Source: Crocinitomix algicola (GTDB lineage: Bacteria > Bacteroidota > Bacteroidia > Flavobacteriales_D > Crocinitomicaceae). From it: a stretch of 64,000 nt of DNA. Positions 45,732-54,117 of this stretch are shown here, piece by piece. Location of the stretch: NCBI RefSeq assembly GCF_001661595.2, contig NZ_LYPF02000021.1, positions 1 to 64,000 on the forward strand, written 5' to 3'. The notes under the pieces are model-generated. The model saw nothing but the letters and a program-made list of their open reading frames with translations. It was not told where the DNA came from and did not search any database. Every line of letters begins with the position of its first letter. Positions within the stretch are counted from its first letter, which is position 1. Both the position numbers and the translations under genes were made by a program.

Positions 45732-48176
45732 TTAGCGTTGTCCCCCGCCATCACCATTTGTACGATTATTCTCATCTTCCAATCCGGTCTTCCGTTCCCG
45801 AATTTTTTTCATTTCGTTATTCCCGAAGTTATAGGTTAAATTAAAGGCTACACGTTGACTTTCGTATCCCCCTGAACCATCAAACCGGACATCTCCAAAA
45901 GTCGCTTTTGCCTTCCACCATGAGGTAAAAAATATATCAGAACCGGATAAACGCAAAGCCAAACGATCATTAAAAAACTTCTTTTCTAAAGCTGCATTAA
46001 AAGCACCCAAACTTTGTGTAACATAGGTACCGCCCCAAACTGATGGAGAACTAAACCATCCAGACAATTCAAGCTTAAAGCCCTTTGGCAATAAAAAAGT
46101 ATTTTGACCATATATACTAACCGTTTCTTGGGTTAATGGCGTGAATTTTTCATCATTAGCCAAATACGAAGTTGAATATGCATTCACTGATAAGTAAACA
46201 TTCCACCAACTTTTAACCTGTAGTGGCAAACTTAAACCTAAAGTTATCGTTCGCTGGTCGGCAACATTTAAGGTTGTTAAAAAAGATTTATCCGTACCCA
46301 ACGTATCTGTAATTTGAGCAAAATAATCTTCAACATAACTATAACTAACCGATGTTGTAAAACGGTACTTAAAGGTATGAGACAATCTTGTATTGTAGGC
46401 ATATTGTGGCTGTAAAAACGGATTCCCCTTCATAAACGATAGTTCGGAAGACTGATTAACAAAAGGATTTAAAGATTGATAATTTGGTCGTTGAATACGT
46501 CTACTAAAATTTAGAGCCCACATGTTATTCTGATTCTGATTGAATGTTAATCCCCCACTTGGAAAAAGATTGGTGTAGGATCTACGAACCGAATCTTCAG
46601 AATTAATTTGACTACTCTTTAACTCTCCAAAAGATTGAGTATGTTCAACCCGAACCCCTACCTGCAAATTCCATTTTTGATTTAACTTTTTAGCGTAATT
46701 AATGTAACCTGCTGCAATGTTTTCTGAATAAAGAAATTCATTCGAACGGCTATCATTTCGATAATCATTACCATCAACTACATCAAAAAATTCAAACACA
46801 TTATCCGTTTCGACCATTGACACTTTCATTCCAGCGCCTAATTTTCCACCTAAAAAATATTGGCCATAATCCAATTTTGCAGAATATATAGCGATTGAAG
46901 TTGGCGTTACCATACGGTAGTTATTTTCAAATAATGTATTCCCGTTGCTTCCATTTAAATATAAATTAGGTTGATAATTAGAGGACTCCCGATTATAGGC
47001 AGCATAGTCCAAATCCAGTGTTAACTCATGCCCTAAAGAATCTTGATAACGGTAATTTATATTACCAGCACCTTGTGAATTTGTACCATAACCAGTGTTT
47101 TCCGCTATTAACTTTTGTTGTGGCGTATTAGATTCAAAAGGAATAATTAAAGTACTTGTGTTACTTGAGTTTTCAGTGTCAAAATAATTTCCAGAAACCA
47201 AAATTCCTAGTGTATGATTATCATTTATAAACCAATCCGTACCAACTTTAGCGTTATGTGCCCCTGCATAATAACTATTATCTGTCTCAGAGCTATACAA
47301 ATAACCATATTGCCAACGATCCATGTCAAAAAATCCCCAGTTACGTCCATAGTTATTACTATACGAAGCATAAACATTACTCTTTTTATTTCTATGATTT
47401 ATTGATATAGAACTATTCGCATGATGATTTTTACCATAAGCATAACCCGCTGTAAACGTACCATTAGTACCCAAATTTTTATCACGTTTAAGTATAATAT
47501 TAATTATCCCAGCGTTACCAGCTGCATCGTATTTAGATGAAGGTTGTGTTATGATTTCTAACTTATCAATATCCGCGGCCTGCAGTGTTTTTAAATAATT
47601 AATTAAATCATCACCGGCTAAAATCGAAGGTTTATTATCAATATAAACTTGGACACCTGACTTTCCCTCAACAATAATATCATTATTATTATCGATTATA
47701 ACACCCGGTGCTTTACGTAACAAATCAAACCCATTAGATCCGGTAGCGTTAAGTGTTTTATCCACATTAAACACAGTTTTATCTGGCTCAACTTCAATTA
47801 TCGGACGTAATTGTAAGACCTGCACAGCTTCAAGTTCACTGTCCGAAATCATTTTTATAATTCCAATCTCTATTCCATCTCCAAAGAGTTCAAATTCTTC
47901 TGAAATATACTTTTCAAATCCGACAGAAGCAATTTGCAGAAAGTACTTTCCGTTAGCCACTCCATTTAAAACAAACTTACCCGTGGTATCTGAAACACCA
48001 AATTTAGAAACAGTACTATCTGTACTGTTCTTCAATAAAATATTAGCGAAAGGGATAGGTTCATTATCATTCAACAACTCACCTGTTACTCGGTTAGCTC
48101 CTTGCGAAAATGCAATTACGTTAAACTGAGTAAACAGTAGTAAACATGATAATTTTAAAAAATTCAACGTGCACAT
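45732..48176 (-). CDS. TonB-dependent receptor-like outer-membrane protein
   Basis: An 814-residue outer-membrane protein. The signal peptide ends near AFSQ (residue 25). Residues about 28-110 are a carboxypeptidase-like regulatory domain (VTGELLNDNEPIPFANILL), a plug domain follows (about 130-230, with GSNGFDLLRKAPGVII), then a long barrel with many aromatic strands. The C-terminus is RKTGLEDENNRTNGDGGGQR, a Gly/Asn tail instead of a final aromatic residue. The family is OMP_b-brl_3/TonB-dependent receptor; ligand unknown. No SusD-type lipoprotein is nearby, so it is not a classic PUL pair. Confidence 0.85.
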   Translation of the reverse strand: MCTLNFLKLSCLLLFTQFNVIAFSQGANRVTGELLNDNEPIPFANILLKNSTDSTVSKFGVSDTTGKFVLNGVANGKYFLQIASVGFEKYISEEFELFGDGIEIGIIKMISDSELEAVQVLQLRPIIEVEPDKTVFNVDKTLNATGSNGFDLLRKAPGVIIDNNNDIIVEGKSGVQVYIDNKPSILAGDDLINYLKTLQAADIDKLEIITQPSSKYDAAGNAGIINIILKRDKNLGTNGTFTAGYAYGKNHHANSSISINHRNKKSNVYASYSNNYGRNWGFFDMDRWQYGYLYSSETDNSYYAGAHNAKVGTDWFINDNHTLGILVSGNYFDTENSSNTSTLIIPFESNTPQQKLIAENTGYGTNSQGAGNINYRYQDSLGHELTLDLDYAAYNRESSNYQPNLYLNGSNGNTLFENNYRMVTPTSIAIYSAKLDYGQYFLGGKLGAGMKVSMVETDNVFEFFDVVDGNDYRNDSRSNEFLYSENIAAGYINYAKKLNQKWNLQVGVRVEHTQSFGELKSSQINSEDSVRRSYTNLFPSGGLTFNQNQNNMWALNFSRRIQRPNYQSLNPFVNQSSELSFMKGNPFLQPQYAYNTRLSHTFKYRFTTSVSYSYVEDYFAQITDTLGTDKSFLTTLNVADQRTITLGLSLPLQVKSWWNVYLSVNAYSTSYLANDEKFTPLTQETVSIYGQNTFLLPKGFKLELSGWFSSPSVWGGTYVTQSLGAFNAALEKKFFNDRLALRLSGSDIFFTSWWKAKATFGDVRFDGSGGYESQRVAFNLTYNFGNNEMKKIRERKTGLEDENNRTNGDGGGQR

Positions 48177-51866: not shown

Positions 51867-52628
51867 CTACTTTAAACTAACATTTTTACCTAAGGCATAT
51901 CTTACTCCTACATTGCACATAACAGATCCATTAAATATATTTGGCGGCGTCTCAGGGTAATAATTCTTAGGGTCATTCCGATCACTCTCATTCAAATAAA
52001 TAGGCGTTCCAAAAATGCCCGCCAGTGATGCATGCACCATTAAATGGTTTGAAATAGGCACATCCAAATTAAGTGAAAGCCTTAAATCGGTATTCAAAAA
52101 ATGATAATTGACTTGTGCAAAATCATGCTCGCCTATGACTTGTTGATGACCATTACCTTGATCAGTAAAGTAGTCATAATTTTCCGGAGTAACAATCTCA
52201 GCAAATTCCCAGGTTCCATCCTCATTGATTGCATATCCAATATTTTGCCTTTGTAAAAACTGACTTCGATATGCAAGATTTAAATCTAAACCTAATGAAA
52301 ATCCAAATTTTAAATCGCGTTCTAAACCGAGCCTTAGATTAAATTGATTCCTTCTGCTCGTCTGACGTGTCATAAGAACAGTTGTGTCTGAAGCAGAATA
52401 GACAGATTCAGGGGAAAAATAGTTCCCTTGACCTCCAACTGTAAACCCAATTTTATAGCGATAGCTTTCACCGAAAGGATTTCGGAATTCTAAACCAAAT
52501 TTATTGAGTTGATCCGTGGAGAAAACCACTCCTAAATCCTTGTACCTTTCATTAGGTGAATCTTGTCCATACCCTAAAACTGAACTTGATAATCCAATAC
52601 CTAAACCAATAATTCTAAACCAATTCAT
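51867..52628 (-). CDS. Exported barrel-like protein of the sigma/TonB operon
   Basis: A roughly 253-residue exported protein. I start at the Met at 52628 (MNWFRIIGLGIG), which gives a signal peptide ending near LGYGQ; a Met at 52658 would add ten residues. The mature part shows outer-membrane barrel strands (NQFNLRLGLERDLKFGFSLGL, LSLNLDVPISNHLMVHA) and ends in VRYALGKNVSLK. It follows the TonB-like gene in the same orientation. Role unknown. Confidence 0.68.
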   Translation of the reverse strand: MNWFRIIGLGIGLSSSVLGYGQDSPNERYKDLGVVFSTDQLNKFGLEFRNPFGESYRYKIGFTVGGQGNYFSPESVYSASDTTVLMTRQTSRRNQFNLRLGLERDLKFGFSLGLDLNLAYRSQFLQRQNIGYAINEDGTWEFAEIVTPENYDYFTDQGNGHQQVIGEHDFAQVNYHFLNTDLRLSLNLDVPISNHLMVHASLAGIFGTPIYLNESDRNDPKNYYPETPPNIFNGSVMCNVGVRYALGKNVSLK

Positions 52629-52672
52629 AAGCGTTATTTTCACTTGTAAACGAGTCATTTAAGTAAATAGTA

Positions 52673-53497
52673 TCACTCAAACGAAAAATTTATTGGCAAG
52701 GTATAGTAGGCTGGCTTGGGTTGACCATTGACCATTGCCGGTATCCATTTTGGCATCAAACCCACCACCCTCAACGCTTCTTTATCGATTGATTTACTCA
52801 CCCCTTTCTCTACCCGGGTATTCTTAATGTTTCCCTCAATATCAATTGTAAAGCGAACATAAACAATTCCTTGATTTCCGTTTATTAATGCCTCTTTCGG
52901 GTAGTTGATGTTTTGGTTAATAAAGTTTGATAGTGCAGAAAATCCTCCAGGATATGTTGGTTCGACATTGATTTGAGTCTCATTGATTTCGCTATCATTG
53001 TCAATTGACCTTTTTTCTAATTCGTCCGAATTATTATTTTCTTCTAAATAAAATTCTTGCGAGCTGATTGTTGAATCGGAGCCTATAATTACCAATGCTG
53101 TATCTGTTTCCTCCAATTCTTCAATAAAAGAATCTTCAATTGCCTTATCTGAAACGCATGTTTCTAATTTCAATTTTCTTTGAGATGACACAAATTGAAC
53201 TAGGCTTGTTTCCTTATTTAGGTTGAAATACAAAAAGAATATAGATGTCATTGCAAATGCTATAAACAACCCTCGTAAGAACAACTTCCGAAAACGATAT
53301 TTGCGATAGGCAAGTTGCGCATCTTGCTTTAAGCCATATGCATTTAAACCTTCCTGAAACAATTGCTGAAACATTACTTTTTGATTAAAATCGGAATCCA
53401 ACTTTATTTTACGCTCAAACTCCCTGCCTTCCATTTCTGACAACTTTCCAGACAAATACAAGTCGATACGTTCCATTTCTTCTAATTCTCTTCTCAT
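52673..53497 (-). CDS. Anti-sigma-like / TonB C-terminal chimera
   Basis: A 274-residue single-pass membrane protein. Residues 1-70 are helical and charged like the cytosolic segment of anti-sigma proteins (LYLSGKLSEMEGREFERKI); a membrane helix lies at about 73-92; a Glu/Asn/Ser-rich periplasmic linker follows; and residues about 185-274 are a TonB C-terminal domain (YPGGFSALSNFINQN to PINFSFE). It overlaps the sigma factor gene by 4 bases (ATGA). Inference: it could bind the sigma factor inside and sense or drive an outer-membrane partner outside. Residues 1-70 lack a zinc-finger motif. Confidence 0.8.
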   Translation of the reverse strand: MRRELEEMERIDLYLSGKLSEMEGREFERKIKLDSDFNQKVMFQQLFQEGLNAYGLKQDAQLAYRKYRFRKLFLRGLFIAFAMTSIFFLYFNLNKETSLVQFVSSQRKLKLETCVSDKAIEDSFIEELEETDTALVIIGSDSTISSQEFYLEENNNSDELEKRSIDNDSEINETQINVEPTYPGGFSALSNFINQNINYPKEALINGNQGIVYVRFTIDIEGNIKNTRVEKGVSKSIDKEALRVVGLMPKWIPAMVNGQPKPAYYTLPINFSFE

Positions 53498-54060
53498 AAT
53501 TGATGATTTAAAGAATTAGCACCCCAATCAACAGCCATTTTGCGTGCTTTTTCCATGCACTTGTACTTTTTCGTTTTTGCCGTTTGAACTGATTTGTAAT
53601 TCAACTGCTTCGCAATTGATTCTAAGGAATGCTTTTTATAGTAAAATGATACTAAAACAGTACGACAAGTTTCACCTAGCTTTGAAATAATCTTTTCAAC
53701 GATTTTATAACGCAACTCTAGTAAGGTAAAATCTTCCAATTCAGATTGATCTTTAAGTTCAATTCCAATTGATTCATTCTTTTTATTTCGAACACGTTTC
53801 TTTTTAAGTTCATTCTTCCAAAGAAGTTTACACGTGTTGATTAAGAATCCTTCTACCTTAACTTCAGATTGATCAGAAAAAGCATTCACTTTATTGTACA
53901 GGACGATTAAGCCATCTTGAAAAACATCCAAGGCTTCACTTTTTGTGCCCGAATTAGATTTCACATAAGCTTCAACTTTGCTTAAATTTTTATAGAGGTA
54001 GCGGAATGCTTTTTCGTGCATTCCACACTTTAGTTGTTGGATTAACTTTTCATTTGTCAT
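53494..54060 (-). CDS. RNA polymerase sigma factor (ECF-like, sigma-70 family)
   Basis: A 188-residue sigma factor. Region 2 is visible near residues 20-90 (LDVFQDGLIVLYNK, like the ECF DxxQxxF pattern), region 4 near 115-175 with a helix-turn-helix (SLESIAKQLNYKSVQTAKTKKYKCMEKA). It drives transcription of a regulon, probably of surface functions. Its gene is followed at once by the anti-sigma/TonB chimera, the usual order for a sigma and its regulator. Confidence 0.88.
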   Translation of the reverse strand: MTNEKLIQQLKCGMHEKAFRYLYKNLSKVEAYVKSNSGTKSEALDVFQDGLIVLYNKVNAFSDQSEVKVEGFLINTCKLLWKNELKKKRVRNKKNESIGIELKDQSELEDFTLLELRYKIVEKIISKLGETCRTVLVSFYYKKHSLESIAKQLNYKSVQTAKTKKYKCMEKARKMAVDWGANSLNHQL

Positions 54061-54117
54061 TTAATCGGTATTTATCACCAATGTAATCAACTCGAAAAGG
54101 TAACCAGAAAATTCAAT

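Follow-up and report, generated by a model that had tools for sequence, protein, structure and literature searches.

The window, a stretch of 64 kb from the genome of Crocinitomix algicola (3.72 Mb in 44 contigs), carries on its minus strand a gene for an ECF-type sigma factor, followed by a gene for a membrane protein with an anti-sigma-like N-terminus and a TonB_C domain at its C-terminus, and then by a gene for a barrel-like protein. The features of the locus, with the evidence on which each was assigned, are:

54081..54104, minus strand: predicted promoter for autoregulation, GTTACCTTTT-N9-TACAT, 20 nt upstream of the ATG start codon of sigma (upstream-motif analysis)
53494..54060, minus strand: ECF-type sigma factor gene, 188 aa (TIGR02937, Sigma70_r2)
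52673..53497, minus strand: gene for a membrane anti-sigma-like protein with C-terminal TonB_C, 274 aa (ORF, Pfam, hydropathy, AlphaFold2)
53288..53497, minus strand: N-terminal anti-sigma-like domain, residues 1-70, zinc-less (profile comparison, linkage, AlphaFold2 helices)
53228..53284, minus strand: single membrane helix, residues 72-90 (hydropathy; flanking charges fit N-in)
52913..53227, minus strand: periplasmic linker of ~105 residues, mostly predicted disordered (AlphaFold2 pLDDT)
52682..52912, minus strand: TonB_C domain, residues 196-272 (Pfam, AlphaFold2, Foldseek)
51867..52658, minus strand: gene for a barrel-like predicted outer-membrane protein, 263 aa (homologues in genomes G004, one, and G001, two)

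The sigma protein scored above the cut-off against both TIGR02937 (NCBIfam search, E 2.5e-15) and Sigma70_r2 (Pfam search, E 6.2e-6). Its gene shares the four bases ATGA, at 53494-53497, with the gene that follows, as the initial annotation had stated, and because a full-length relative from the same genus (genome G004) shows the identical 4-bp overlap, the arrangement of a sigma gene and a TonB_C protein is not a product of chance. The architecture described in that annotation, with a cytosolic N-terminus, one helix and a TonB C-terminal domain, was recovered by Pfam, hydropathy and AlphaFold2. The best hydrophobic stretch lies at residues 72-90, and the 15 residues before it include six K/R and one D/E, which fits an N-terminus on the inside. 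Elsewhere in the same genome, two genes which we take to be response-regulator-like and histidine-kinase-like are found directly upstream of a paralogous sigma/anti-sigma pair (contig C2, locus L009, 2065-3517).

A gap of 14 bp separates the anti-sigma gene from the barrel-like gene. The name barrel was read from the sequence, and searches of Pfam and NCBIfam with the protein, at E up to 1, found no family. Homologues with 29-33% identity are present at the G004 locus (one) and the G001 locus (two), where they are preceded by a YfbK-like vWA gene, which is missing from this position in the window; none was found in 14-15 kb of G007 and G012, or in the other, shorter loci, most of which span only a few kb. 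The neighbour remarked on earlier is thus found again in these two relatives, but the gene is not part of all loci, and a role as TonB-dependent receptor was rejected, there being no plug or receptor match.

The N-terminal segment: kinship and linkage to sigma genes

Residues 1-70 of the window protein matched no Pfam or NCBIfam family, and residues 1-100 gave none that was convincing. The same N-terminus is common to genes that stand after sigma genes, where it is mostly followed by a membrane helix and then by differing ends, and its consensus over 25 rows begins MRxELxxIExIExYLxGxLSxxEKxxFExxIxxDPxL. When 25 relatives were scanned with Pfam, only two touched zf-HC2, with a best E of 0.031, and in the C. 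algicola genome neither zf-HC2 nor DUF4880 gave a match at E up to 0.001. At the level of profiles, the segment aligned with zf-HC2 at 94.3% and 96.6% (hhalign, 49-50 columns) and with DUF4880, the FecR N-terminus, at 94.7% and 96.7% (hhalign), both families covering the same 48-50 columns of the segment, while sigma region 2 and TPR, used as helical controls in the profile comparison, reached 0.46% and 0.56%. The segment profile and zf-HC2 both matched one protein stretch of genome G111 (contig C26, near 88654-88740). The window protein has replaced the zinc ligands Hx3Cx2C, with K in place of H and with D and F in place of the two C in the zf-HC2 alignment; this motif is optional in the class I anti-sigma family, according to PMC7406223. 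A single protein of another locus (L161, 781-1641) has the zinc-less segment followed by an HxxxCxxC stretch, resembling tandem anti-sigma domains.

In the AlphaFold2 model of the whole protein, the N-terminal helices span residues 2-15, 21-33 and 35-53, with a long one from 57, and the block pLDDT is 74-90 up to residue 90. A single-sequence fold of the isolated segment placed helices at 2-21, 24-31, 35-54 and 60-70, and structure searches with this isolated model listed no anti-sigma factor, an absence that does not exclude one. A PDB sequence search gave a weak match to the anti-sigma factor RslA (3hug; E 0.91 and 0.63), which came second in a list of 4 and eleventh in one of 23, amid unrelated proteins that scored alike or better. 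Since the helix limits differ between the two models, and the PDB match is weak, the predicted N-terminal fold is compatible with an anti-sigma domain but does not prove one.

The association of segment and sigma gene was evaluated in two directions. A sigma-based search of 59 genomes, that of C. algicola included, detected a close sigma factor (E up to 1e-15) in 27 and gave 56 matches. The sigma-selected set of 52 loci includes two weaker matches from C. algicola, and five of the 56 matches lie outside it. The segment stands downstream in 51 of the 52 loci (46 in a complete downstream ORF, five at the expected position in an open frame, truncated or absent from the list of complete ORFs), the only exception being L011 of the C. 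algicola genome, a count that is not independent, as the segment model was built from many of those rows. The second search made no use of sigma and scanned 296 genomes of the phylum with 75 positions of the segment alone, giving matches in 95 genomes. Among these, the best match in each of 29 genomes other than C. algicola was examined, and a sigma ORF was found directly upstream of the segment in all 29 loci, with gaps of -58 to +74. Moreover, sigma and segment distances were correlated over 76 pairs (r 0.66, against a maximum of 0.13 in 1000 permutations), as expected for genes inherited together. Because of the upstream sigma gene in 29/29 loci and the profile matches with clean controls, we hold residues 1-70 to be, very probably, an anti-sigma domain, in line with the suggestion in the initial annotation that the N-terminus may hold the sigma factor, and an anti-sigma identity of the segment protein is well supported by linkage and homology.

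The periplasmic end and the question of a receptor

PF03544 (TonB_C) matched residues 196-272 with an E of 7.9e-18 and 65.1 bits, against a cut-off of 24.6. The AlphaFold2 pLDDT is 91-98 for residues 181-274, and the best Foldseek matches of this part were the TonB C-terminal domains 6sly and 6i97_D (TMt 0.74), the latter being the TonB chain in a FoxA complex; as modelled, the TonB_C domain is intact and has the TonB fold. The model extends the helix to residue 121, and the linker has a pLDDT of 42-54 in blocks 111-170.

The domain has wider use in this genome, where TonB_C is also carried by an M56-like membrane protein and by signal-peptide proteins, which are not TonBs, so that, judged by its occurrence, it is a general periplasmic module. 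The M56-like protein with TonB_C (contig C43, locus L088, 8545-10153) adjoins a BlaI-like repressor gene, both names being presumptive, and is probably a second regulator of this genome with a TonB_C outer end. The two TonB-like proteins of the genome (L086 and L089) have LExKRFxFFxxGL at the membrane helix, a motif that by inspection is absent from the N-terminus and helix of the window protein, and an identity as ordinary TonB was rejected because these parts differ. The genome has three ExbD matches; that the window gene does not adjoin one says little, because the L086 and L089 genes also lie off the ExbD contigs.

The segment is present in 76 of the 77 sigma/downstream pairs whose ORF is complete, and 63 of these 76 proteins have one hydrophobic segment. 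Their ends, labelled by local models and motifs, were TonB_C (12 proteins), TonB_C plus a large domain (5), the large domain alone (11), TPR (16), trypsin-like (3) and other (29), although cut or broken ORFs could explain some labels; within the last class, Pfam found Trypsin_2 in L111 and HEAT in L153. The TonB_C fusion, which the initial annotation had proposed to look for in other genomes, is thus present in 17 of the 76 proteins, from 15 genomes. Six of the seven scanned passed the Pfam cut-off for TonB_C (the window protein and those of G004, G012, G003, G007 and G049), and the C. algicola paralogue at L009 stayed below it (19.2 against 24.6 bits). Mapped on the sigma tree, where 30 of 73 inner branches are open, TonB_C presence requires 7 changes; the full set of end labels requires 17, compared with 41.8 in shuffles. 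The supported set of 12 rows around the window alone contains TonB_C (3), TonB_C plus the large domain (3), the large domain (5) and another end (1). The 7 changes on the sigma tree suggest repeated gain or loss of the TonB_C end next to an N-terminal segment that was kept. A tree of TonB_C itself (62 rows, 99 columns, 5 of 59 inner branches starred) gave no readable origin for the TonB_C of the window. From sequence comparison, then, these proteins make up a modular Bacteroidota family that keeps the N-terminal segment and changes the periplasmic end, and the window protein is one form of it, not a singular chimera.

Two other kinds of end were observed. A CxxCH motif occurs in the relatives L092 (the L056 protein), L096, L097, L100 and L108, of which L056 and L096 score above the Pfam Cytochrom_C cut-off, and some of the large-domain ends include a cytochrome c; an anti-sigma factor that carried haem would be a candidate sensor of haem or of redox state. 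In L114 (the same as L074), L144, L163 and L111, a trypsin-like protease end comes after the segment and helix, assigned by Pfam for L074 and L111 and by motif only for L144 and L163, and self-cleavage of such an anti-sigma factor is conceivable.

The initial annotation had also suggested that the protein may engage an outer-membrane receptor. Ten receptor loci of C. algicola were used as queries against 15 of the 17 TonB_C loci, each represented by 3.5-15 kb and the window by its 64 kb, and of these 15 only the G004 locus showed a clear TonB-dependent receptor as neighbour, in convergent orientation, so that this part of the annotation was not borne out. The scan also matched two YfbK-like proteins, of which that of G004 has a CarboxypepD_reg domain. 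A receptor-like ORF of the window (45732-48176), located ~5 kb away and separated from the anti-sigma gene by oppositely oriented genes, has a weak Plug match below the cut-off and no STN match. The scan missed this ORF, and for that reason is not fully sensitive and may have passed over distant receptors elsewhere. No closely linked receptor with an STN signalling domain was found in the window. The genome as a whole has 26 Plug matches, and its two FecR-domain matches each lie less than 4 kb from one of them. An outer-membrane protein is a plausible partner of the TonB_C domain.

The upstream motif and the predicted regulon

In the 12-row set that contains the window, GTTACCTTTT-N9-TACAT is located upstream of the sigma gene, exact in 11 of the 12 rows and with two mismatches in G004. 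Over 77 upstream regions (the 76 pairs and L094), the best match was exact in 12, one mismatch off in 5 and two off in 10, which makes 27/77 within two mismatches compared with 3/4000 simulated regions of the same dinucleotide make-up, counts that overstate the evidence somewhat because related genomes are not independent. The exact sites span several genera, and in a scan of 558 kb from 89 sources, each match with at most one mismatch was located at a sigma start, save for three C. algicola loci that had been picked by the motif. We consider GTTACCTTTT-N9-TACAT to be a probable autoregulated promoter.

The C. algicola genome contains two exact sites, the one at 54081-54104 and another that precedes an OmpA-family gene (contig C22, locus L225, 801-1481), whose product matches OmpA (E 3.9e-23) and CarboxypepD_reg. 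Two sites have one mismatch (L226 and L227), one of them without a close gene start and the other ~225 nt before a gene start, and a weaker site lies just before the paralogous sigma gene (C2:207313). When up to two mismatches were allowed genome-wide, the motif was not enriched (27 matches against 36 for the control pattern); the weaker genomic sites are therefore untrustworthy, and a regulon beyond the operon depends on the one exact site. As a whole, the motif speaks for autoregulation and, less strongly, for an envelope regulon. A different upstream pair, TGAACCTTT[CT]-N13-TACAG, is by eye common to the YfbK-like vWA genes (upstream of 6427 in L084, of 3978 in L092 and of 9040 in L093) and is perhaps the promoter of another sigma factor.

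A model for the locus and its place among known systems

The explanation that we favor, and hold to be probable as a whole, is that the locus is an autoregulated pair of ECF sigma factor and membrane anti-sigma factor, whose N-terminal domain is a zinc-less relative of the class I and FecR-type anti-sigma domains, and whose TonB_C domain is a sensing or tethering end. Judging from linkage and homology, the N-terminal 70 residues would keep the sigma factor at the inner membrane, one helix would cross the membrane, and the linker of ~105 residues would carry TonB_C into the periplasm, where it would bind a partner in the envelope. A change in this contact would free the sigma factor, with the anti-sigma factor either changing its conformation or being proteolysed, and free sigma would then transcribe its own operon (sigma, anti-sigma and barrel) from GTTACCTTTT-N9-TACAT and perhaps, as the second exact motif site suggests, the OmpA-family gene elsewhere in the genome. 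Envelope homeostasis would be the likely job of such a system.

Other explanations share parts of this model. RseA-type systems signal by regulated proteolysis of the anti-sigma factor. By analogy, the anti-sigma function could be real and TonB_C only a periplasmic binding or shielding module, with envelope damage exposing a cleavage site in the linker and no receptor involved. The long, low-confidence linker is consistent with this, as are the relatives that have TPR, trypsin-like or large-domain ends in place of TonB_C, the occurrence of TonB_C on signal-peptide proteins and the M56-like protein of this genome, and the OmpA-family envelope protein as the one predicted extra target; proteolytic control is, however, carried over from other systems, and we regard this explanation as a serious possibility that falls somewhat short of an even chance. 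Alternatively, TonB_C might dock on TonB-dependent receptors and report their loading, as one-protein cell-surface signalling. The intact fold, the close match to the TonB chain of the FoxA complex (6i97_D), the length of the linker (~105 aa) and the 26 Plug matches in the genome would suit such docking, and in Pseudomonas aeruginosa VreA of PUMA3 combines a TolA/TonB-like domain with the signalling domain of a receptor (PMC2729926). Nevertheless, the only clear receptor neighbour among the 15 TonB_C loci scanned was the convergent one of G004, and, whereas the FecR-domain matches of this genome lie less than 4 kb from a Plug match, the nearest one here is below the cut-off and ~5 kb off, making receptor docking unlikely. 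In an extended version of this idea, the TonB_C tip would read the TonB boxes of ligand-loaded TonB-dependent receptors in competition with the energising TonB and without a dedicated signalling receptor, and ECF signalling in Bacteroidota would combine the zinc-less domain with exchangeable sensors (TonB_C, cytochrome c, protease); we hold this to be improbable.

The two remaining alternatives concern what the protein does, rather than what it contacts. The N-terminal domain might be mainly an activator needed by the sigma factor, and not an inhibitor, in the manner of the FecR N-terminus, whose 59 residues are essential for ECF activity according to PMC7406223. The segment aligns with the FecR N-terminal family as well as it does with zf-HC2, but this argument is reversible, since the alignment with zf-HC2 is equally good, and an activator is in our judgement improbable. 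Finally, the TonB_C domain and the three ExbD matches of the genome would permit a working TonB energiser regulated by its N-terminus, or a bifunctional protein, but the window protein is without the LExKRFxFFxxGL of L086 and L089 and its gene is coupled to a sigma gene, and we consider this very improbable.

The favored pairing of an ECF sigma factor with a zinc-less anti-sigma domain bears on a gap described for this phylum. According to PMC7406223, a class I anti-sigma domain adjoins only 6% of the Bacteroidetes ECF sigma factors, compared with an average of 32%, and control of the remaining ones is left open. Since the domain stood beside a sigma gene in 29/29 loci examined from a search by the domain alone, a zinc-less domain that is invisible to Pfam could account for part of this gap. 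The exchangeable periplasmic ends suggest what each sigma factor listens to, and the TonB_C version would be a proposal that TonB-type contacts are used for signalling, not for energy. Our literature search listed no paper on a fusion of anti-sigma factor and TonB_C. An earlier description in a large ECF reclassification, reportedly from 2021, is possible.

Compared with FecI-FecR-FecA, the locus likewise has an ECF sigma factor and a single-pass regulator whose N-terminus profile-matches DUF4880, but TonB_C takes the place of FecR/FecR_C, and no closely linked STN receptor is present; a classical FecR was rejected, since the protein had no FecR or FecR_C match in Pfam at E up to 1. PUMA3 (VreA-VreI-VreR) of P. 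aeruginosa also brings a TonB/TolA-like C-terminal domain into ECF signalling; there, according to PMC2729926, it belongs not to the anti-sigma factor but to another protein, which is receptor-like and has an STN-like domain. The TonB energy transducers share TonB_C and a periplasmic linker with the window protein, but its N-terminus and helix differ from those of the TonB-like proteins of this genome, and it is coupled to a sigma factor. The M56-like protein at L088 similarly has TonB_C outside a membrane protein that adjoins a probable regulator gene, but makes up what is presumably a metallopeptidase/repressor pair and not a sigma/anti-sigma pair. Class I anti-sigma factors (ASDI; the zf-HC2/RskA/RseA type) resemble the window protein in the position of its gene directly after an ECF sigma gene, in a short cytosolic N-terminus, predicted to be helical, with usually one membrane helix and a variable C-terminal end, and in the profile match to zf-HC2 over 49-50 columns; the window protein differs in that its zinc ligands are replaced, Pfam does not recognise it, and its periplasmic end is TonB_C. 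We place the TonB_C protein among the membrane anti-sigma factors, as a variant form and not as a new kind of system.
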